Shown: piece by piece, positions 5,096 through 29,344 of the stretch
Position numbering within the stretch: the stretch's first letter is position 1
How the letters are laid out: every line of letters starts with the position of its first letter
Assembly (NCBI RefSeq): GCF_900100075.1
Contig: NZ_FNEG01000002.1
Coordinates: forward strand, 496,001 to 560,000
Reading direction: 5' to 3'
Length of the DNA: 64,000 nt
DNA from: Chryseobacterium jejuense
GTDB taxonomy: Bacteria; Bacteroidota; Bacteroidia; Flavobacteriales; Weeksellaceae
Made by a program: the position numbers and the translations under genes
Notes under the pieces: generated by a model
Database searches by the model: none
The model's input: only the letters and a program-made list of their open reading frames with translations
Told to the model about the DNA's origin: nothing

Positions 5096-5273
5096 GCTTC
5101 TGTTATTATGATTTTATCTTATAGTAAAGTTGCGAAGAATGGATGGATCAACTTAGACACAGATTTTTTTATTTGGAGGGATACAATTAAAGAAAAGAAT
5201 TTAATCAATACAAAATCTCAGTTTTTTTGATAGTGTTACTCTTCAAAATATATTCTAATTCTCAATATTTTAA

Positions 5274-5281
5274 TACATTTG
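5274..5281 (+). promoter_or_regulatory. -7 promoter box upstream of the HExxH gene
   Basis: TACATTTG matches TAnnTTTG and lies 18 bases before the ATG at 5300. The rest of the gap back to 5096 shows no gene. Confidence 0.5.
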
Positions 5282-5299
5282 TTATAAAACATACTTCAA

Positions 5300-5809
5300 A
5301 TGAATTTTGAGCAGGTTAATCTACACCTTGAGGCCTATAAAGAACATAACCAGATCCTGGATGCTGCCAAATATCTGATTCATTCTTTTGATCTGGAACA
5401 TGAAAATTTTGCAGGTTTTGGATTCAGGGAAGAGCTTTCTCCTACTTCGATGCTTCTTACCGCAGAAGGGGAATTGGGAGGACCACAAACCGTAATGATT
5501 CCCAGAAATTTATTTGATTTTGACCTGAACCTTGTCTTAAATATGGTAGCCCACGAAATGCTTCATGTAAGGCAAAAGGCTCCAGGACAGGTGATAGAAG
5601 ACAAAAATGAAAGAGAGTTTCAGGCTTATTATGAAATGCTCTTTCACAAGGTTTTCCCACAGGTTCCCGAAGTTTCAGACTTTCATAAAAAATTCTTTGG
5701 CGGAAAAGCTTTAGAATATTATAAAAGAATGGGTGAAGGTTCAGAATTACAACAAAAATATGCAGAACAGAAAACAGAAGTAGAACATTTTATTAACACA
5801 TTACCATGA
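5300..5809 (+). CDS. putative zinc metallopeptidase-like protein (HExxH)
   Basis: The protein is 169 residues, cytosolic by lack of a signal peptide. HEMLH at residues 85-89 fits the zinc-peptidase motif HExxH, preceded by a helix (LNLVLNMVA). Downstream EREFQAYYE (104-112) could supply a third acidic zinc ligand. The first gene of an apparent operon, it overlaps csaA by the ATGA junction at 5806-5809. I do not know a named family with demonstrated activity; a peptidase or a zinc-binding structural role are both possible. Confidence 0.72.
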   Translation: MNFEQVNLHLEAYKEHNQILDAAKYLIHSFDLEHENFAGFGFREELSPTSMLLTAEGELGGPQTVMIPRNLFDFDLNLVLNMVAHEMLHVRQKAPGQVIEDKNEREFQAYYEMLFHKVFPQVPEVSDFHKKFFGGKALEYYKRMGEGSELQQKYAEQKTEVEHFINTLP

Positions 5810-6153
5810 ACGTAAAACCAGACATAACTTGGGCAGATTTTGAAAAAATAGACATCAGATGCGGAACAATTATTTCAGTAAATGATTTTGAAAAAGCCAG
5901 AAATCCATCTTATCAATTGGAAATTGACTTTGGTGACTTAGGAATCAGAAAATCATCTGCACAAATTACTTCATTGTATCAGAAAGAAGAACTGGTAGGA
6001 AAACAGATTTTGGCCGTAGTTAACTTTCCTAAAAAACAGATTGCCAACTTCTTCAGCGAATGTTTAGTCTTAGGATTATATGGAGAAGACAAAAATGATG
6101 TAACTCTTTTAGCTCCTTCATTACCCACCAAAAACGGAATGCAGGTAGGATAG
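5806..6153 (+). CDS. csaA: CsaA-like tRNA-binding protein
   Basis: At 115 residues it is a stand-alone EMAP/tRNA-binding OB-fold protein. FEKIDIRCGTIISV, the KSSAQIT segment, GKQILAVVNF and SECLVLGLYG follow the order seen in bacterial CsaA and the C-terminal domain of methionyl-tRNA synthetase. CsaA homologues are dimers reported to bind tRNA and to have chaperone-like activity. The start overlaps the stop of the HExxH gene, and the exonuclease gene follows after 15 bases, so the three are probably one transcript. Confidence 0.92.
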   Translation: MNVKPDITWADFEKIDIRCGTIISVNDFEKARNPSYQLEIDFGDLGIRKSSAQITSLYQKEELVGKQILAVVNFPKKQIANFFSECLVLGLYGEDKNDVTLLAPSLPTKNGMQVG

Positions 6154-6168
6154 CAAATAAAAAACACG

Positions 6169-6870
6169 ATGATACAGAACATACCACTAGAAAAGGTCTT
6201 ATTCCTTGATATTGAAACCGTTCCACAGGCAGGATCCTGGGACGATTTATCAGAAACCGATCAACATCTTTGGGATAAGAAAACAAGATTCCAGAGAAAA
6301 GAAGATGTTTCCGCGGCTGAGTTTTATGACAGAGCCGGAATTATGGCTGAGTTCGGAAGGATTATCTGCATCACGATCGGAATGGTGGAAAAGAATGAAA
6401 CCTTAAAGATCAAAAGCTTCTCCGGACATGATGAGAAGAAGATGCTTCAGGAATTTGGAGAAATTTTCAACAGTCCAAGGTTGTATAATGTTATTCTCTG
6501 CGCCCACAACGGAAAAGAGTTTGATTTCCCATGGATTGCAAGGAGATATCTCATCAACGGTATGCAGCCTCCTGCCCCATTCCAGATGTTTGGAAAAAAG
6601 CCTTGGGAAATTCCTCACATAGATACAATGGAACTGTGGAAATTCGGGGATTATAAAAGTTTTGTATCATTGGAATTATTAGCTCACGTCTTTGGTATTC
6701 CCACTCCAAAGGATGATATCGATGGCTCAATGGTTTCATCAATTTACTACATAGAAAAAGACTTGCAGCGAATTGTTGACTATTGTGAAAAAGATGTCTT
6801 AACTTTGGCAAATATTTTCCGACGTATGCGTCAGGAAGATTTGTTGAAAAGGAATATCAATTTAGATTAA
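6169..6870 (+). CDS. DEDDy-type 3'-5' exonuclease (PolB exonuclease-like)
   Basis: The 233-residue protein is a stand-alone exonuclease domain. Exo I is FLDIETVP with D14 and E16; Exo II includes CAHNGKEFDFPWIARRYL; Exo III is YCEKDVLTL with the YxxxD pattern of DEDDy enzymes. This is the predicted family related to the proofreading domain of B-family polymerases (DNA_pol_B_exo2). It should remove nucleotides from 3' ends with two metal ions; whether DNA or RNA is the substrate is unknown. It sits between csaA and the DUF59 gene in a tight operon (15 and 3 bases). Confidence 0.9.
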   Translation: MIQNIPLEKVLFLDIETVPQAGSWDDLSETDQHLWDKKTRFQRKEDVSAAEFYDRAGIMAEFGRIICITIGMVEKNETLKIKSFSGHDEKKMLQEFGEIFNSPRLYNVILCAHNGKEFDFPWIARRYLINGMQPPAPFQMFGKKPWEIPHIDTMELWKFGDYKSFVSLELLAHVFGIPTPKDDIDGSMVSSIYYIEKDLQRIVDYCEKDVLTLANIFRRMRQEDLLKRNINLD

Positions 6871-6873
6871 AAA

Positions 6874-7200
6874 ATGAAATTTACAGACGATCAAATTGCA
6901 GACATTGGTGAAGAAATCATCAGCGTGCTAAAAACCGTATATGATCCCGAAATTCCGGTAGATATTTACGAATTAGGGCTAATTTATGATGTACAGATCT
7001 CCGATGATGCTGACGTAAAAATTATAATGACCCTTACCACTCCCAACTGTCCGGTAGCAGAAACACTACCTCAGGAAGTAAAGGATAAAGTAGCAGAAGT
7101 AGAACATGTAAATAGTGTTGACTTAGAGCTTACCTTTGAACCGAGCTGGAATAAGGACATGATGAGCGAAGAAGCAAAATTTGAACTTGGAATGCTATAA
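6874..7200 (+). CDS. DUF59/MIP18-family iron-sulfur assembly protein
   Basis: The 108 residues are a single DUF59 domain: VYDPEIPVDIYELGLIYDV, a TLTTPNCPVA loop with the conserved Cys, and a C-terminal VDLELTFEPSWNKDMMSE. Stand-alone members (SufT-like, PaaD-like) help mature Fe-S proteins in the cytosol. The reading frame begins 3 bases after the exonuclease stop, so it is co-transcribed. SufE at 54804-55223 belongs to the same process, but other suf genes are not in the window. Confidence 0.92.
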   Translation: MKFTDDQIADIGEEIISVLKTVYDPEIPVDIYELGLIYDVQISDDADVKIIMTLTTPNCPVAETLPQEVKDKVAEVEHVNSVDLELTFEPSWNKDMMSEEAKFELGML

Positions 7201-7256
7201 ATCTTAAGCATTTTCTAAACAGATAAAATTAATATTACCACTTTTACTTAGTAATC

Positions 7257-7400
7257 ATGATAAAAAAGATAGGAGCAATACTACTTGCTTTCTTAGGAGT
7301 ATATATGCTTTATTTAGGGTCTAAAATGCAGGCTCACCCTCCTTTTATAACCGGAATAGGATTTATAATTATCTCATTGCTGCAACTGAGTAAAAAGTAA
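7257..7400 (+). CDS. 47-residue membrane protein
   Basis: A short open frame starts with ATG at 7257 and ends with TAA at 7400. Two hydrophobic stretches (IGAILLAFLGVYML and FITGIGFIIISLLQL), a basic N-terminus MIKK and a basic tail SKK suggest a two-pass hairpin membrane protein. It follows the DUF59 gene by 56 bases and precedes a terminator, so it may close that operon. Codon use looks like its neighbours. No function is known to me. Confidence 0.6.
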   Translation: MIKKIGAILLAFLGVYMLYLGSKMQAHPPFITGIGFIIISLLQLSKK

Positions 7401-7417
7401 TATAGAATTGAAAATAT

Positions 7418-7448
7418 AAAAGGATGTCACAGTATGACATCCTTTTTT
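7418..7448. terminator. bidirectional terminator
   Basis: The stem AAGGATGTCA / TGACATCCTT has a 5-nt loop CAGTA, with T-rich tracts on both strands. It separates the plus-strand operon from the convergent sulfurtransferase gene. Confidence 0.85.
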
Positions 7449-7479
7449 CTATCGTTGAAACCTCAATCTAAAATTACTT

Positions 7480-8316
7480 TTACAGTTCTTTTGCAACTTC
7501 TTTTCCTTCTCTCCTGCTCCATTCACTCCACGATCCTACATAAAGATCAGGGATCTTAAACCCTGCATGGGCTAATGCTAAAATGGTATGACATGCCGTA
7601 ACCCCTGAACCACAGTGAATAATGAGGTTTTCAGGTTTATTTTGTAATAATTGGGTATATTTTTCTTTTAGAATTTCAGGACTCAGGAACAATCCGTTTT
7701 CATCCAGGTTTTCAGAAAAAGGAATATTGATTGCTCCTGGAATATGTCCGGCAACCAGATCAATCGGCTCAGATTCTCCTCTGTATCGGTAAGCATCTCT
7801 AACATCAATTACGGTAGACGAATTATTTTCTAATTCATTTTCAACTTCTTCCAGACTTGAAACAGGTAGATTCCAGTTCTCTTTTTTAATTAATGGAGCT
7901 TTTTCAAAGGTCTCTTCTCCTGATGAAAATTCTATATTATTCTTTTCCGCAGCCTGTATCCCACCATCAAGAACCCGAACGTTATCAAACCCAAAAGATC
8001 TCAGCATCCACCATGCTCTGGCAGCTGCATTTGATCCGTTTTTATCGTCATAAACAACAATATGAGAATTTTCAGTAATCCCTAAATTGGACAGTGTTTC
8101 TGAAAATTTTTCCAGGCCTGGAAGTGGATGTCTTCCTCCAAAGGCTGCATTTTCACTTATCTCAGCAAGATCTTTATCCAGATCAATGAATCCTGCTCCT
8201 ATGATATGCTTTTCACGGTAGTTTTGCTTTACATCTTTCCCTGTTCTTGCATCAAGAATGATGAGGTTTTCCGTTGGAAGATTCTTTAATTCGGAAGGTG
8301 AAATTATTGGAGACAT
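7480..8316 (-). CDS. sseA: 3-mercaptopyruvate sulfurtransferase-like protein
   Basis: The 278 residues form two rhodanese domains. The N-terminal inactive domain contains ILDARTGKD and GRHPLPG; the C-terminal catalytic domain contains VIDVRDAYRYRGE and the active-site loop HCGSGVTACH near residue 235. CGSGVTA is the loop of 3-mercaptopyruvate sulfurtransferases rather than thiosulfate-specific rhodaneses. It moves a sulfane sulfur from 3-mercaptopyruvate to a thiol or cyanide acceptor in the cytosol. It is a single gene, convergent with the DUF59 operon; the region upstream holds a two-hairpin repeat. Confidence 0.9.
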   Translation of the reverse strand: MSPIISPSELKNLPTENLIILDARTGKDVKQNYREKHIIGAGFIDLDKDLAEISENAAFGGRHPLPGLEKFSETLSNLGITENSHIVVYDDKNGSNAAARAWWMLRSFGFDNVRVLDGGIQAAEKNNIEFSSGEETFEKAPLIKKENWNLPVSSLEEVENELENNSSTVIDVRDAYRYRGESEPIDLVAGHIPGAINIPFSENLDENGLFLSPEILKEKYTQLLQNKPENLIIHCGSGVTACHTILALAHAGFKIPDLYVGSWSEWSRREGKEVAKEL

Positions 8317-13007: not shown

Positions 13008-13256
13008 ATGAAACAAATGAAAAAACTTTTGAGAAAGGATCTTTCAACGATTCTTGGTAACGGAATAGACAGCTGCCATATGGGAGGAGATTCTTATAAT
13101 TGCCAGAACGACTGCCAATGTGCCTGGGGAAAAGCCTGTGAAATGTATGAAGACGGAACCCCGGGACAATGTATTTCTGTTGGCGGAGGCGGTGGAGGTA
13201 CTGGCGGCGGAGGCGGATGTATTCCCCCGAACGACTGCACAGAACAGCCTTATTAA
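13008..13256 (+). CDS. Cys-rich peptide with GG-type leader (bacteriocin-like)
   Basis: The 82-residue product starts with a basic, amphipathic leader containing KKLLRKDLSTILGNG, which matches the xKLxKxxLxxIxG(x)G leader shape of the three peptides at 26156-26718. The core (about 20-82) has eight Cys, most in the segments DSCHMGG, NCQNDCQCAWGKAC and GQCIS, then a glycine tract and CIPPNDCTEQPY. This suggests an exported disulfide-rich or otherwise modified peptide. No modification enzyme, peptidase or ABC exporter is nearby. It is followed by a terminator and then a barrel gene and a LytS/LytTR pair. Confidence 0.7.
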   Translation: MKQMKKLLRKDLSTILGNGIDSCHMGGDSYNCQNDCQCAWGKACEMYEDGTPGQCISVGGGGGGTGGGGGCIPPNDCTEQPY

Positions 13257-24861: not shown

Positions 24862-25518
24862 TTATTTCTTTACTTTGATTGTACACCCAATCGCTACAGT
24901 TTTTGTCATTTTCACCGGTTCTCCCTTTATCAAAGCATTTACGGCATCCTGAGCATAGTATTCTGACACATCGGTTGGGTTATCGTAATTGTTATCAATA
25001 GCTCCAATATATTTTACAATGTTCTTACTGTTTTCCTTTTGCAATATAAAAACATGGGGTGTTTTTGTGGCTCCGTACTGCGGATAGATCTTCTGTCCTT
25101 CATCCATTAAATACGGAAAAGTAAAACCTTTCTGTTTTGCTCTCTCTATCATTTGTTTATATCCATCCTCCGGTTGCACAGTCGGATCATTCGGATTAAT
25201 GGCTATTACCGGATATCCCTGAGCTTTGTACTTTTTATCCAACTCAATGATTCTGTCTTCATATTTCTTGGCATACGGACAATGGTTACAGGTGAAGATC
25301 ACGATGAACCCTTTAGCTGTTTTAAAATCACTCAGGGAAACCATCTTCCCATCAATATTTTTAAGTTTAAAATCTGCAGCCTCATCTCCTACTTCATAAC
25401 CCTTTACCACTGAAACAGTTTCTTTTTGAGGTTCATTTTTATCGTGATTCGTTGTTGTAAAACTTAACAATCCCAGCCCAGCAATGAAAGCTGCTATTAA
25501 TGTTTTCATATTTTTCAT
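24862..25518 (-). CDS. thioredoxin-family (AhpC/TSA-like) exported protein
   Basis: The 218-residue protein has an N-terminal signal (MKNMKTLIAAFIAGLGLLSF) and a thioredoxin-like domain (about 45-200) with the active site FTCNHCPYAKKY (CxxC), a redoxin cis-Pro region TKTPHVFIL and a C-terminal TVAIGCTIKVKK. This agrees with periplasmic redoxins of the AhpC/TSA superfamily. It may reduce disulfides or peroxides in the envelope. The TlpA-like gene lies upstream with its stop at 25529, so the two form an operon; ATG at 25518 is preferred to a TTG at 25524. Confidence 0.88.
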   Translation of the reverse strand: MKNMKTLIAAFIAGLGLLSFTTTNHDKNEPQKETVSVVKGYEVGDEAADFKLKNIDGKMVSLSDFKTAKGFIVIFTCNHCPYAKKYEDRIIELDKKYKAQGYPVIAINPNDPTVQPEDGYKQMIERAKQKGFTFPYLMDEGQKIYPQYGATKTPHVFILQKENSKNIVKYIGAIDNNYDNPTDVSEYYAQDAVNALIKGEPVKMTKTVAIGCTIKVKK

Positions 25519-25528
25519 ACTCAATTAT

Positions 25529-26017
25529 TTATTGTAGATTTTCAGTAATTGTCTTTTCTAAATCTTCCTTGCTCATTTCTCCATCATTGAAATATACTTT
25601 CTCTCCGTTTTTATAAAAAATAGTTACCGGAATATTTCCTTCCCATTCTTTTTCAAATCTTGGAATCCAGGTATTCATGCGTTTAATATCGTCTAAAAGT
25701 ACAACTTCAGCAGTCAGATTTTTATTTTTAATGAATTTTAAAACCCTTTCTTTATCCACCAACCTATCTAATGAAACCAAAATCATCTTAAATTTAGAAT
25801 TATTTGAGTTTTGATTATTGACTTCCATAAAGTGAGGAAGTTCCTTCACACAAGGTGCACAAGTAGTGGCCCAAAAATTCACAACCAGAACCTTATCTTT
25901 CTCCGATTGGATTTTCTTTTCCAGGTCTTCATATTTCAGAACAGAGACTTCCATCTGCTGCGCTTTACAAATCGTACAGAACAAAAAGACAGCAAGGATT
26001 TTTAGTAAATTCTTCAT
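25529..26017 (-). CDS. TlpA-like thioredoxin
   Basis: The 162-residue protein has a signal peptide (MKNLLKILAVFLFCTICKAQ) and a TlpA/ResA-like domain with NFWATTCAPCVKELPHF as the CxxC active site and VTIFYKNGEKVYF following the cis-Pro strand. Such proteins reduce disulfides in the periplasm, for example during cytochrome c maturation. It is divergent from the Cys-Cys peptide genes at 26156-26718. The operon includes the next thioredoxin-fold gene. The start at 26017 gives the signal peptide; an earlier frame start lacks one. Confidence 0.9.
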   Translation of the reverse strand: MKNLLKILAVFLFCTICKAQQMEVSVLKYEDLEKKIQSEKDKVLVVNFWATTCAPCVKELPHFMEVNNQNSNNSKFKMILVSLDRLVDKERVLKFIKNKNLTAEVVLLDDIKRMNTWIPRFEKEWEGNIPVTIFYKNGEKVYFNDGEMSKEDLEKTITENLQ

Positions 26018-26125
26018 ATTCAAATGTAATAAATAATTGCAAATCAGAAATCTTAAGACTCTATTTTTTATGATCTTACGTAAATGAATTTTTTCACAAT
26101 CCGTAGAGTTATTTAGATAATTTTG

Positions 26126-26133
26126 TATATTTG
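26126..26133 (+). promoter_or_regulatory. -7 promoter box upstream of the Cys-Cys peptides
   Basis: TATATTTG matches TAnnTTTG and lies 22 bases before the start at 26156. Confidence 0.5.
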
Positions 26134-26155: not shown

Positions 26156-26317
26156 ATGAAAAAATCAAACATTCAGAAAAAGAAACTTACCAAGAAAGAA
26201 ATGAAATTCATTAATGGAGCAGGCCCAATCTGCCCACGGGTAATTAATTGTACAGACCGAAATACCGGAGAAGAACGATATGGTGTTTATGGAATTCAGG
26301 ATGGACCTTGCTGTTAA
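26156..26317 (+). CDS. GG-leader peptide ending in Cys-Cys, copy 1
   Basis: The 53-residue peptide has a basic leader with KKKLTKKEMKFINGAG and a core starting about residue 22: PICPRVINC, then acidic/polar residues and a C-terminal GIQDGPCC. The leader fits the Bacteroidota bacteriocin-type leader that ends near a Gly-Gly/Gly-Ala site. It is first of three tandem related genes under one -7 box and is followed by 51 bases and the second gene. No modification or export gene is in the window; the product may be a bacteriocin-like or signalling peptide, which is inference. Confidence 0.72.
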   Translation: MKKSNIQKKKLTKKEMKFINGAGPICPRVINCTDRNTGEERYGVYGIQDGPCC

Positions 26318-26368
26318 TACTTTTCAGAAACCTCAACCAAATAATCAAATCCAACTAAAATTGTTCTT

Positions 26369-26536
26369 ATGAAAACAACATTAAAACTTCAGAAAAGGAA
26401 GCTTAAAAAAAGTGAGTTAAAAAAAATTACAGGTAACGGAAGTGATACTTGCTACGACGGATTCTGCCGTATGGGAATAGATGAACCATGGCAACTTGGA
26501 GCTGGAGACCAAAACGGATTCTGTTGCCAACTATAG
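26369..26536 (+). CDS. GG-leader peptide with C-terminal Cys-Cys, copy 2
   Basis: The 55-residue peptide has a leader with KRKLKKSELKKITGNG, matching copies 1 and 3 in the KLxKxExKxI(N/T)G block, and a core with CYDGFCRMGID and a C-terminal QNGFCCQL. Unlike copies 1 and 3 it has two residues after the Cys pair. The leaders align residue by residue while the cores differ in length and order, as expected for precursor paralogues under diversifying selection. It has no cotranscribed partner other than its two neighbours. Confidence 0.72.
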   Translation: MKTTLKLQKRKLKKSELKKITGNGSDTCYDGFCRMGIDEPWQLGAGDQNGFCCQL

Positions 26537-26559
26537 TCAAACTAAACAAATTAAAAGAT

Positions 26560-26718
26560 ATGAAAAAATCAGTCATTCAAAAAAATAAGCTTACGAAAAC
26601 TGAGCTTAAGGAAATCAACGGTGGTGCAGTTAACTGCGCAGAAGGAACTTGTAAACTCAGAGGAGTAAGCCATTTCCTTATCATCGGTCCTAGAGGCAAA
26701 GACGGATACTGCTGTTAA
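26560..26718 (+). CDS. GG-leader peptide ending in Cys-Cys, copy 3
   Basis: The 52-residue peptide starts MKKSVIQKNKLTKTELKEINGG and has the core AVNCAEGTCKLRGVSHFLIIGPRGKDGYCC. The GG is followed by AVNC, the clearest double-glycine site of the three. Start at 26560 is chosen over an upstream in-frame codon that would read into the preceding gene. It begins 24 bases after copy 2 and shares its leader with copy 1 almost completely. A bidirectional terminator in the mutS 3' end closes the unit. Confidence 0.75.
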   Translation: MKKSVIQKNKLTKTELKEINGGAVNCAEGTCKLRGVSHFLIIGPRGKDGYCC

Positions 26719-26742: not shown

Positions 26743-26778
26743 AAAAATGATTGGATTATCCTCCAATCATTTTTTTTA
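26743..26778. terminator. bidirectional terminator overlapping the mutS 3' end
   Basis: AATGATTGGA and TCCAATCATT pair around TTATCC and run into T on the plus strand; the minus strand also has a T tract. The hairpin includes the last mutS codons and its TAA. Confidence 0.8.
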
Positions 26779-29344
26779 TGGCATTGAGCTTCATTAAAGC
26801 TTCAATGGGTGTTAAAGTATTGATATCTATTTTGGTAAGCTCTTCCCTGATATTCTCCAACACCGGATCATCCAGCTGGAAGAAGGAAAGTTGCATGTTT
26901 TCTTCGGTTACCCTTTTGATATTCTCTGAAGCTCCTCCTTCCTGACTTCTGCTCGCCTCAAGGGTTTTTAGGATTTCATTTGCTCTGTTCACCACTTTGG
27001 CAGGCATTCCTGCTAATTTGGCAACATGAATACCGAAACTATGTTCACTGCCACCGGGAACCAATTTTCTCATGAAAATAATATTCCCTTTATTTTCCTG
27101 AATGGAAACGTGGAAATTTTTCACTCTTTCAAAATTCACGGTCATCTCATTCAACTCATGGTAATGCGTAGCAAATAAAGTCTTCGCCTGTGTAACATGT
27201 TGGTGAAGATATTCTGCAATAGCCCATGCAATGGAAACCCCATCATACGTAGAGGTTCCACGGCCAATTTCATCCAAAAGAATAAGGCTTCGTTCTGAAA
27301 TATTATTCAGGATATTGGCAGCTTCATTCATTTCTACCATGAAAGTAGATTCTCCTGCAGAAATATTATCCGTTGCTCCTACCCTTGTAAAGATTTTGTC
27401 CAGCAGTCCGATTTCAGCATGTTTAGCAGGTACAAAACTTCCAATCTGAGCCAAAAGACATACAATAGCCGTCTGACGCAAAATTGCTGATTTACCGGCC
27501 ATGTTAGGCCCTGTTACCATGATGATCTGTTGGGAATCTTTATCCAGGAAGATATCATTCGGAATATATTTTTCTCCTAACGGAAGAGCGTTTTCAATGA
27601 TTGGATGCCTTGCTTCTTTCAGATCAATAGCATAACCGTCATTCAGAATAGGTTTTGTATAGCTTTCTGAAACAGCCAGTTCAGATAATCCTGCAGCAAC
27701 ATCAATCTGCGCAATAATATTAGAGTTCCCCTGAATCTGATCGATATACACCATAGTTTCAGCACATACATTTCTGTACAGCTGAGTTTCCAGAACACTA
27801 ATCTTTTCTTCAGCACCCAGAATCTGGCTTTCATATTCCTTTAGCTCTTCTGTGATATATCGCTCGGCATTCACAAGGGTCTGTTTTCTCAACCAGTCAT
27901 TCGGAACTTTATCTTTATGGGTATTTCGAACTTCAATATAGTATCCGAAAACGTTATTAAAATCAATTTTAAGGCTTGTAATACCTGTTCTTTCAATTTC
28001 TCTCTGGCACATTTCATCCAGGAATCCTCGCCCTTTGCTCTGAAGATTTCTCAATCTGTCCAATTCCTCAGAAACTCCATTCTGAATAACATTTCCTTTG
28101 GCAATACTTACCGGAAGCTCTTCATTCAGATGATTTTGCAGATATTTAATCAGTTCTTCAAGATCAAATAAAGGTTCTAACCAAGCCAGCACGTCTGCAT
28201 GTGGGTGCAATAACGCTTTGATTGTATGAATATTAATCAAACTCTGACGCAGATAACCCAGCTCTTTAGGAGATATTTTCTCTGCAGCCAGTTTTCCCAT
28301 CAGTCGGTCAAGATCGGAAATTGATTTTAGCAGTTGTCCTATTTCATATTTAAGATGATCGTTTTCGTTTAAGAAATCAATAAGAGAAAGCCTTCTGGAA
28401 ATTTCATCTACCGATTTTAAAGGAAGAATAATCCTTCTTCTCAGCAATCTCCCACCCATTGGAGTTGAAGTTTTATCAATAATATCCAGCAATGATTTCC
28501 CTTGTGGGTTACTTGGATAAACAATTTCCAGATTTCTTAAGGTAAAATTATCCATCATCAGATAATCTTCCTGTGGAATAATCTGAAGTTTGGTAATATG
28601 AGAAAGCAGGTTATGGTGTGTATCTTCTACCAGATAGGCAAAAATAGCTCCGGCTGCTGTAATAGCTAATGGAAGAGTCTCCACTCCAAACCCTTTTAAG
28701 GAATTGGTTTTAAAATGATTGGTTAATTTTTCGTAGGCAAAATTATATTGAAAAGCCCAGTCTTCCAGTTTAAAAGCATTCTTATTTTTAATCTGCTCCG
28801 GAAGCTGTACACTTCTCTGGAAAATAATTTCACTCGGATCGAAGGTATTGACAATATGGAGCAGCTTTTCAAGGTTACCCTCGCTTACCAAAAACTCGCC
28901 GGTAGAAATATCTACTAAAGCAATTCCATATTTCTCCTTTTCCTTATGAAGAGAAAGCAGAAAGTTATTTTTCTTGGAATTTAAAACCTGATCATTGAAG
29001 GTTACTCCAGGCGTTACCAGTTCCGTAACTCCTCTTTTTACAATTCCTTTCACCATTTTAGGATCTTCCAGCTGGTCACAAATAGCAACTCTCATTCCGG
29101 CTCTTACCAATTTTGGAAGGTAAGAGTCTATTGAATGATGTGGAAAACCTGCCAGCTCTACACTTCCTTCTCCGTTATTCCTTTTTGTAAGAACAATACC
29201 CAGTATCTGTGAGGTCTTCACGGCATCCTGCCCAAAAGTTTCATAAAAGTCCCCTACTCTGAAAAGTAAAAGCGCATCAGGGTATTTTCCCTTGATGGTA
29301 TTATATTGAGTCATTAGCGGGGTTTCCTTCTTCGATTTTGCCAT
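26756..29344 (-). CDS. mutS: DNA mismatch repair protein MutS
   Basis: The 862-residue ATPase has the mismatch-recognition start MTQYNTIKGKYPDALLLFRVGDFYETF, whose F and E flank the Phe-x-Glu motif, the connector and clamp domains, and the C-terminal ABC ATPase: Walker A TGPNMAGKSAILRQ near residue 615, Walker B LLDEIGRGTSTYDG and HYHELNEM. It binds base-base mismatches and small loops and recruits MutL. It is a single gene facing the peptide cluster. Confidence 0.97.
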   Translation of the reverse strand: MAKSKKETPLMTQYNTIKGKYPDALLLFRVGDFYETFGQDAVKTSQILGIVLTKRNNGEGSVELAGFPHHSIDSYLPKLVRAGMRVAICDQLEDPKMVKGIVKRGVTELVTPGVTFNDQVLNSKKNNFLLSLHKEKEKYGIALVDISTGEFLVSEGNLEKLLHIVNTFDPSEIIFQRSVQLPEQIKNKNAFKLEDWAFQYNFAYEKLTNHFKTNSLKGFGVETLPLAITAAGAIFAYLVEDTHHNLLSHITKLQIIPQEDYLMMDNFTLRNLEIVYPSNPQGKSLLDIIDKTSTPMGGRLLRRRIILPLKSVDEISRRLSLIDFLNENDHLKYEIGQLLKSISDLDRLMGKLAAEKISPKELGYLRQSLINIHTIKALLHPHADVLAWLEPLFDLEELIKYLQNHLNEELPVSIAKGNVIQNGVSEELDRLRNLQSKGRGFLDEMCQREIERTGITSLKIDFNNVFGYYIEVRNTHKDKVPNDWLRKQTLVNAERYITEELKEYESQILGAEEKISVLETQLYRNVCAETMVYIDQIQGNSNIIAQIDVAAGLSELAVSESYTKPILNDGYAIDLKEARHPIIENALPLGEKYIPNDIFLDKDSQQIIMVTGPNMAGKSAILRQTAIVCLLAQIGSFVPAKHAEIGLLDKIFTRVGATDNISAGESTFMVEMNEAANILNNISERSLILLDEIGRGTSTYDGVSIAWAIAEYLHQHVTQAKTLFATHYHELNEMTVNFERVKNFHVSIQENKGNIIFMRKLVPGGSEHSFGIHVAKLAGMPAKVVNRANEILKTLEASRSQEGGASENIKRVTEENMQLSFFQLDDPVLENIREELTKIDINTLTPIEALMKLNAIKKMIGG

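Follow-up and report, generated by a model that had tools for sequence, protein, structure and literature searches.

Three short genes lying head to tail between a divergent gene for a TlpA-like thioredoxin and the convergent mutS raise the question of what peptides with a common leader and a Cys-Cys end are for, and which machinery handles them, at a Chryseobacterium jejuense locus where no processing genes lie beside them. The genes stand on the forward strand of the window, the whole 64,000-nucleotide stretch of DNA that was analysed, and encode peptides of 53 (peptide 1, 26156..26317), 55 (peptide 2, 26369..26536) and 52 residues (peptide 3, 26560..26718), whose C-termini read PCC, FCCQL and YCC, all as an earlier sequence-only reading had described them. 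For peptide 3, the open reading frame listing gives a longer frame of 76 residues from 26488, and most aligned homologues use the 52-residue start.

The three leaders agree in 18 invariant columns, including K10, L11, K13, E15, K17, I19, G21 and G23, a likeness far above chance given the database and genus-profile matches, and a G[G/A] site, as in double-glycine leaders, follows a leader of the L..xEL..I type. In peptide 1, the leader is MKKSNIQKKKLTKKEMKFINGA, with the cleavage point inferred from the GG/GA site of its orthologues, and the predicted mature form is GPIC...GPCC. The leader of peptide 2 ends in ITGN, a GN site that appears as GN, GS or GG among its relatives, with a predicted mature form GSDTC...GFCCQL, and that of peptide 3 ends in INGG, with a predicted mature form AVNCAEGTC...GYCC. 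The predicted cores are 30-32 residues long and hold four cysteines each. That the genes share a leader and then diverge is thus right as to the leader; the cores are not without resemblance, because a C-x4/5-C-x18/19-CC frame and a [D/N]GxCC end are common to all three. Database searches gave 16 matches for peptide 1 and 26 for peptide 3 (the window's own protein among the 26), with Chryseobacterium as the origin in every source naming an organism. A PDB search for relatives of the peptides returned one match, at chance level, and a structure model of peptide 3 was set aside at a pLDDT of 49.

The distribution of the array was followed with a profile built from the three window peptides and 18 homologues. 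At E<=1e-3, it has matches in 134 of the 173 genomes of the genus, strong ones (E<=1e-16, counted from the match table) in 94; the remaining 40 genomes, with a weak match, are probably leader-only. At most 39 candidates were scored per genome in this search, and the match numbers are accordingly lower bounds. Of 148 genomes drawn from the family, nine are matched by the profile at E<=1e-6, and every one of the nine belongs to this genus. Thirty array loci, the best-scoring ones and this window included, were inspected, and mutS (26756..29344, reverse strand, in the window) adjoins the array in all 30. A leader pattern recovers 79 peptides from these loci, one to six per locus and at least two in 27 of them; each of the 79 carries Cys-Cys within its last six residues, and 72 have four cysteines and seven have six. 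The 49 gaps between array members measure 21-241 nt, and the frames of at least 30 residues within them comprise two more Cys-Cys peptides that the leader pattern had missed and six frames of 31-46 residues without evident meaning; no immunity-like frame was found inside the arrays (49 gaps, 30 loci).

Upstream of the window array, a predicted promoter of the form TAG-N19-TATATTTG, located by pattern match at 26104..26133 on the forward strand, is of what we take to be the Bacteroidetes -33/-7 type. The pattern precedes the array at 25 of the 30 loci and occurs in 0.9% of 90-nt pieces taken at random from the genome, but it had been widened with the sequences in view; a first, strict pattern matched five of the 30, and the 25 are not an independent test. 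A scan for sigma-70 type promoters gave two sites against 3.2 in shuffled sequences. Between the array and the convergent mutS lies a hairpin with a 13-pair stem and flanking T runs (26743..26774), a predicted terminator that is listed on the reverse strand, one being found against 0.5 expected in shuffles; an identical or similar stem occurs in 24 of the 30 loci.

Selection on the reading frames was estimated as pN/pS in groups made from the array loci, with dS near saturation. Leader and core stand at 0.24 and 0.23 in the peptide 1 group, 0.25 and 0.29 in the peptide 2 group (B, n=7) and 0.189 and 0.068 in the peptide 3 group (C), in which the core is nearly invariant across 20 aligned sequences. 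Purifying selection at 0.07-0.29 in the three window groups therefore marks the three frames, as far as sequence can tell, as real and conserved genes, and the proposal that they encode precursor peptides with a shared leader, for which an absence of selection had been named as fatal, survives. The further expectation of a conserved leader with a variable core does not carry over to orthologues: the core of peptide 3 is tighter than its leader, and in peptides 1 and 2 the two parts do not clearly differ. Fast-diversifying cores were accordingly set aside for peptides 1 to 3 and kept for group D, a group absent from the window with a looser core (pN/pS 0.51). Between paralogues, the leader is common and the cores differ; peptide 3 does not look like the product of an arms race, its slowly changing part being the core and its faster one the leader.

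These figures bear on the function that database names suggest, namely that the peptides are bacteriocins of the class II type, which kill relatives. Matches of peptides 1 and 3 carry 'bacteriocin' as a source name, peptide 3 narrowly misses two models of bacteriocin leaders (TIGR03949, 18.9 bits against a cut-off of 21.5; TIGR01847, 15.5 against 15.7) and the more variable cores of group D fit such a role, whereas the near-invariance of the peptide 3 core and the 49 array gaps without an immunity-like frame speak against it, and we regard it as unlikely. Among the families searched, the class IIb lactobin A/cerein 7B model (TIGR03949) registers below its cut-off with peptide 3 only, and the CCPGW family of putative bacteriocins (NF047792) gives 16.2 bits against a cut-off of 80 with peptide 1. 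Databases label these genes as bacteriocins or as hypothetical, presumably from the short leader. Given so little variation in the core of peptide 3 and no immunity-like frame within the arrays, a conserved role, for example signalling or a self-directed use, looks likelier to us than that of a classical bacteriocin; an immunity gene may still lie elsewhere in the genome.

The immediate neighbours were the first candidates for a partner, since the sequence-only reading had noted two thioredoxin-fold genes beside the array that could handle its cysteines. Both exist as described, a TlpA-like thioredoxin (25529..26017) and an AhpC/TSA-Redoxin domain protein (24862..25512), each on the reverse strand, and tlpA lies inside the fetched flank of 23 of the 30 array loci (the flank being 1.5 kb, so that longer arrays can hide it). 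Among 20 genomes without a trio-profile match (E<=1e-3), a tlpA orthologue is found in 10, beside ahpC every time; mutS lies inside the flank in six of these 10, and VKOR is absent from five. One of the 10 (G044) has a divergent Cys-Cys peptide by tlpA, with a canonical MKNLKK leader, and the scanned flank of the other nine contains no Cys-Cys peptide. Because the pair persists in half of these 20 genomes, the neighbours do not depend on the array and a special role for them is not supported; as dedicated partners, TlpA and AhpC were set aside. The tlpA-ahpC pair thus keeps together whether or not an array is present, and may still act as a helper. The same persistence counts against a role, in the periplasm or after secretion, in the handling of metals or redox chemistry, in which the four cysteines would bind metal or act together with the TlpA and AhpC-like neighbours. 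The Cys-Cys ends and the 23 loci with tlpA nearby suit this idea, which is nonetheless very improbable, the leader and its co-distribution with a distant gene cluster, presented below, pointing to export.

A wider view of the leader leads out of the window. The public model NF047798 (leader_Chryseo, 'bacteriocin-like protein') describes a leader of the same kind as that of the trio; it covers 18 leader positions only, is silent on a processing hub, disulfides and arrays, and leaves the trio below its cut-off of 23.5 bits (15.9 for peptide 1, 17.9 for peptide 3 and no match for peptide 2). In a profile comparison with hhalign, the trio profile aligns with 21 canonical leader peptides, one of which (L131) itself has a CC core, over 19 leader columns with a probability of 96.6 and an E-value of 6e-10, which identifies the two leaders as homologous at profile level; the G044 peptide, with its canonical leader on a Cys-Cys core at the corresponding site, supports this. 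The description of the locus as an undescribed system consequently holds only in part, the leader class having an NCBIfam name. At E<=10, NF047798 has at least 81 matches in this genome, and at least 46 of these exceed the cut-off (150 of the 163 candidates were scored). When 35 stretches around these matches and the window were scanned with a leader pattern blind to cysteines, 61 frames came out, a few plainly due to chance; a second leader pattern gave 57 distinct peptides in the scanned stretches, so that about 57 leader-class precursors are scattered over the genome. One further GG-leader precursor lies in the window itself (13008..13256, forward strand), with 82 residues, eight cysteines and a Gly-rich stretch. 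Elsewhere, at L039:12236-16164, nine Cys-rich leader peptides with leaders of the KKLNKKELRSITGG type, like that of the window trio, stand within 4 kb as a larger array with other frames between two groups.

That no C39-type exporter lies in the window was stated correctly by the sequence-only reading and is misleading as a description of the organism, because the genome holds two C39 exporters over the cut-off elsewhere. One of them belongs to a cluster, here called the hub, with the order HlyD, leader peptide, C39-ABC exporter, leader peptide and VKOR/DsbA fusion, which then continues with grasp-with-spasm enzymes and a leader peptide, the latter probably being the precursor of those enzymes. 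The exporter (L037:9701-11893) conserves the D-C, H and D of the C39 domain, of which Cys, His and Asp are presumably the catalytic residues, and matches PCAT1 and ComA over its full length, PCAT1 aligning with it over residues 2-722. The fusion protein combines VKOR and Thioredoxin_4 domains, and its structure model (pLDDT 65, medium confidence) shows a likeness to ScsC/DsbA structures and a weaker one to VKOR. The N-terminus of the fusion (L037:12235-13743) may correspond to a degenerate C39-like domain without the catalytic Cys; the match is sub-threshold (13.9 bits), and a profile match in register (probability 0.05%, E 0.84, not significant) and weak fold matches to PCAT1 (TM about 0.15, on the model of pLDDT 65) leave the domain unproven.

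Twenty-one hub regions were compared, that of this genome and 20 that were fetched, 16 of them because C39 and VKOR were listed close together and four (G042, G067, G109 and G161) on a single row. C39 and VKOR are present in all 21, largely by choice of regions; HlyD is present in 20, the remaining one being cut by the end of the stretch; leader peptides stand among VKOR, C39 and HlyD in 17; and the grasp-with-spasm pair is found in six, that of this genome included. In one of these regions (L169, G013, about 5191-7950), the matches of HlyD and of the next gene are split, possibly by frameshifts.

The enzymes at and around these exporters suggest another fate for the peptides, as RiPP precursors that the grasp-with-spasm maturase or a radical SAM enzyme of the genome would turn into graspetide or thioether products. 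At L036:11659-15438, the second C39 exporter is accompanied by a small peptide with cysteines and by an enzyme of the radical SAM/SPASM type, whose best NCBIfam match, TIGR04463, stays below the cut-off; this is likely a separate RiPP locus, and its exporter could serve some leader peptides. The enzyme beside the second exporter and the grasp-with-spasm pair in six of the 21 hub regions lend the idea some substance. At least eight genomes with a strong array, however, have no TIGR04193 match at E<=1e-20, the precursor that stands beside maturation enzymes looks different from the trio, and even cysteine counts fit disulfides, which together make modification by these enzymes improbable. A graspetide identity was set aside, the maturase not being present wherever the precursors are; some further modification, by a radical SAM or another enzyme, is conceivable.

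The cysteine counts were compiled for the leader-class cores. Among 56 non-redundant cores of this genome, the number of cysteines is even (2, 4, 6 or 8) in 55; the remaining core has five. Restricted to cores with at least three cysteines, 53 are even and one is odd, against 51 even and 75 odd among control small ORFs from the same stretches; with at least four cysteines, the controls divide into 51 even and 19 odd (Fisher p 1e-4 against the cores) and with at least two into 207 even and 75 odd. The other fetched loci yield 50 non-redundant cores, 40 even and six odd at three or more cysteines, three with a single cysteine and one that is Cys-free, and odd counts thus concern six of the 46 with at least two cysteines. 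By reading of the tables, three 3-Cys and three 1-Cys cores come from hub regions with grasp-with-spasm enzymes, and these six look like graspetide precursors; the remaining odd cores are two of a five-Cys type that is also found in this genome and one with seven. The five-Cys type recurs in three genomes (L046:5021-5188; L154:5401; L159:16592) and is the main exception to parity. Judged from the counts, even numbers of cysteines would fit disulfide-bonded peptides.

The sequence-only reading had proposed asking whether an exporter or modifying enzyme co-varies with the leader, and an exporter and an oxidising enzyme do co-vary with the leader family. In the draw of 148 genomes, the VKOR fusion (E<=1e-10) is present in 37, the leader in 33 and both in 31; the fusion thus accompanies 31 of the 33 leader genomes against six of the 115 others (Fisher p 1e-23, kinship ignored). 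The two leader-only genomes have one weak leader match each, and in the six genomes with the fusion alone its match is a fragment or no more than 36% identical; among the 31 genomes with both, the fusion match of G175, G227 and G285 is likewise a fragment or a distant paralogue. A full-length fusion match of at least 41% identity, a threshold set after the table had been seen, is accompanied by the leader in 28 of 28 genomes. The leader occurs in eight genera of the draw and the fusion in 10, with seven in common. Where the listed matches show both places, which is the case for seven genomes from three other genera, 0.3-3.8 kb separate a leader from the fusion; among the matches listed for G231, the leaders are not near it.

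Within the genus (n=173), VKOR (PF07884, a count that takes in VKOR genes outside the hub) is found in 161 genomes, NF047798 in 160 and C39 in 169. NF047798 has matches in two of the 12 VKOR-less genomes (four matches and one), against 158 of the 161 with VKOR, and the trio profile in none of the 12 against 134 of the 161, with Fisher p-values of 4e-12 and 4e-9, respectively, that ignore kinship. Three genomes have VKOR without the leader (G030, G088 and G137) and two the leader without VKOR (G068 and G106). A MutS tree of 31 rows, chosen to hold all 12 VKOR-less genomes, places the absence of VKOR at eight changes, at least five of them on well-supported branches. It offers five usable independent pairs, of which three agree, none disagrees and two show no difference (p 0.25); this count of independent changes weakens the co-variation seen within the genus.

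Taken together, these observations point, with a probability that we would put at roughly 60%, to the trio as double-glycine leader precursors served in trans by the distant C39 exporter-HlyD-VKOR/DsbA cluster, which would cleave them, export them and form their disulfide bonds, and the predicted processing in trans would be why no processing genes lie beside them. One promoter would drive the whole array. The leader, KLTKxELKxINGG, would dock to the hub exporter at its C39 domain, which would cut after G[G/A/N], the ABC exporter with HlyD would carry the core across the envelope, and the VKOR fusion with its DsbA-like domain would oxidise the four cysteines to two disulfides, which perhaps tie the N-terminal C-x4/5-C to the C-terminal Cys-Cys. 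The mature peptides would then act outside the cell.

Parts of this scheme have counterparts in known systems. Like the PCAT exporters with their double-glycine peptides (PCAT1, ComA), the hub combines a full-length exporter match, catalytic residues and GG leaders; unlike them, one hub stands against dozens of precursors spread over the genome, its cluster includes a VKOR-DsbA fusion, and the mutS array has no exporter of its own and no immunity-like frame in the gaps of the 30 loci inspected. A VKOR oxidase dedicated to exported peptides would be, to our knowledge, an unusual pairing. In the prochlorosins, many precursors are processed in trans and the lanthipeptides are made by one LanM; the processing of many precursors in trans is alike, and here the common step is likely disulfide formation. 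In Chryseobacterium itself, chryseoviridin and its graspetide relatives also come from tandem precursors and need ATP-grasp ligases (PMC8939145). Genus and tandem arrangement are the same, and the hub has grasp-with-spasm genes beside it in some genomes only; the difference is that array-bearing genomes can be without a SPASM maturase.

The kind of system is already known, because the leader is publicly named and the exporter is of a known type. Among the literature matches listed (titles and abstract starts, with most subscription journals outside the coverage), none concerns even-Cys precursors served by a hub or a Cys-Cys array linked to mutS. More tentatively, and with the odds somewhat against it, this Gram-negative genus may run, genome-wide, a repertoire of secreted disulfide peptides, some fifty to eighty even-Cys GG-leader microproteins that stand singly or in small arrays and are all served in trans by one C39-ABC/HlyD/VKOR-DsbA hub, the mutS-linked Cys-Cys array being a conserved subset with almost invariant cores that serve as within-genus signals. 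For assigning further genes, an even cysteine count provides a simple sequence test of membership in the class. If the hub does process these precursors, one cluster that can be deleted would export dozens of disulfide-closed miniproteins in a widespread genus, and a whole class of unknown genes would become testable by one knockout and one secretome.
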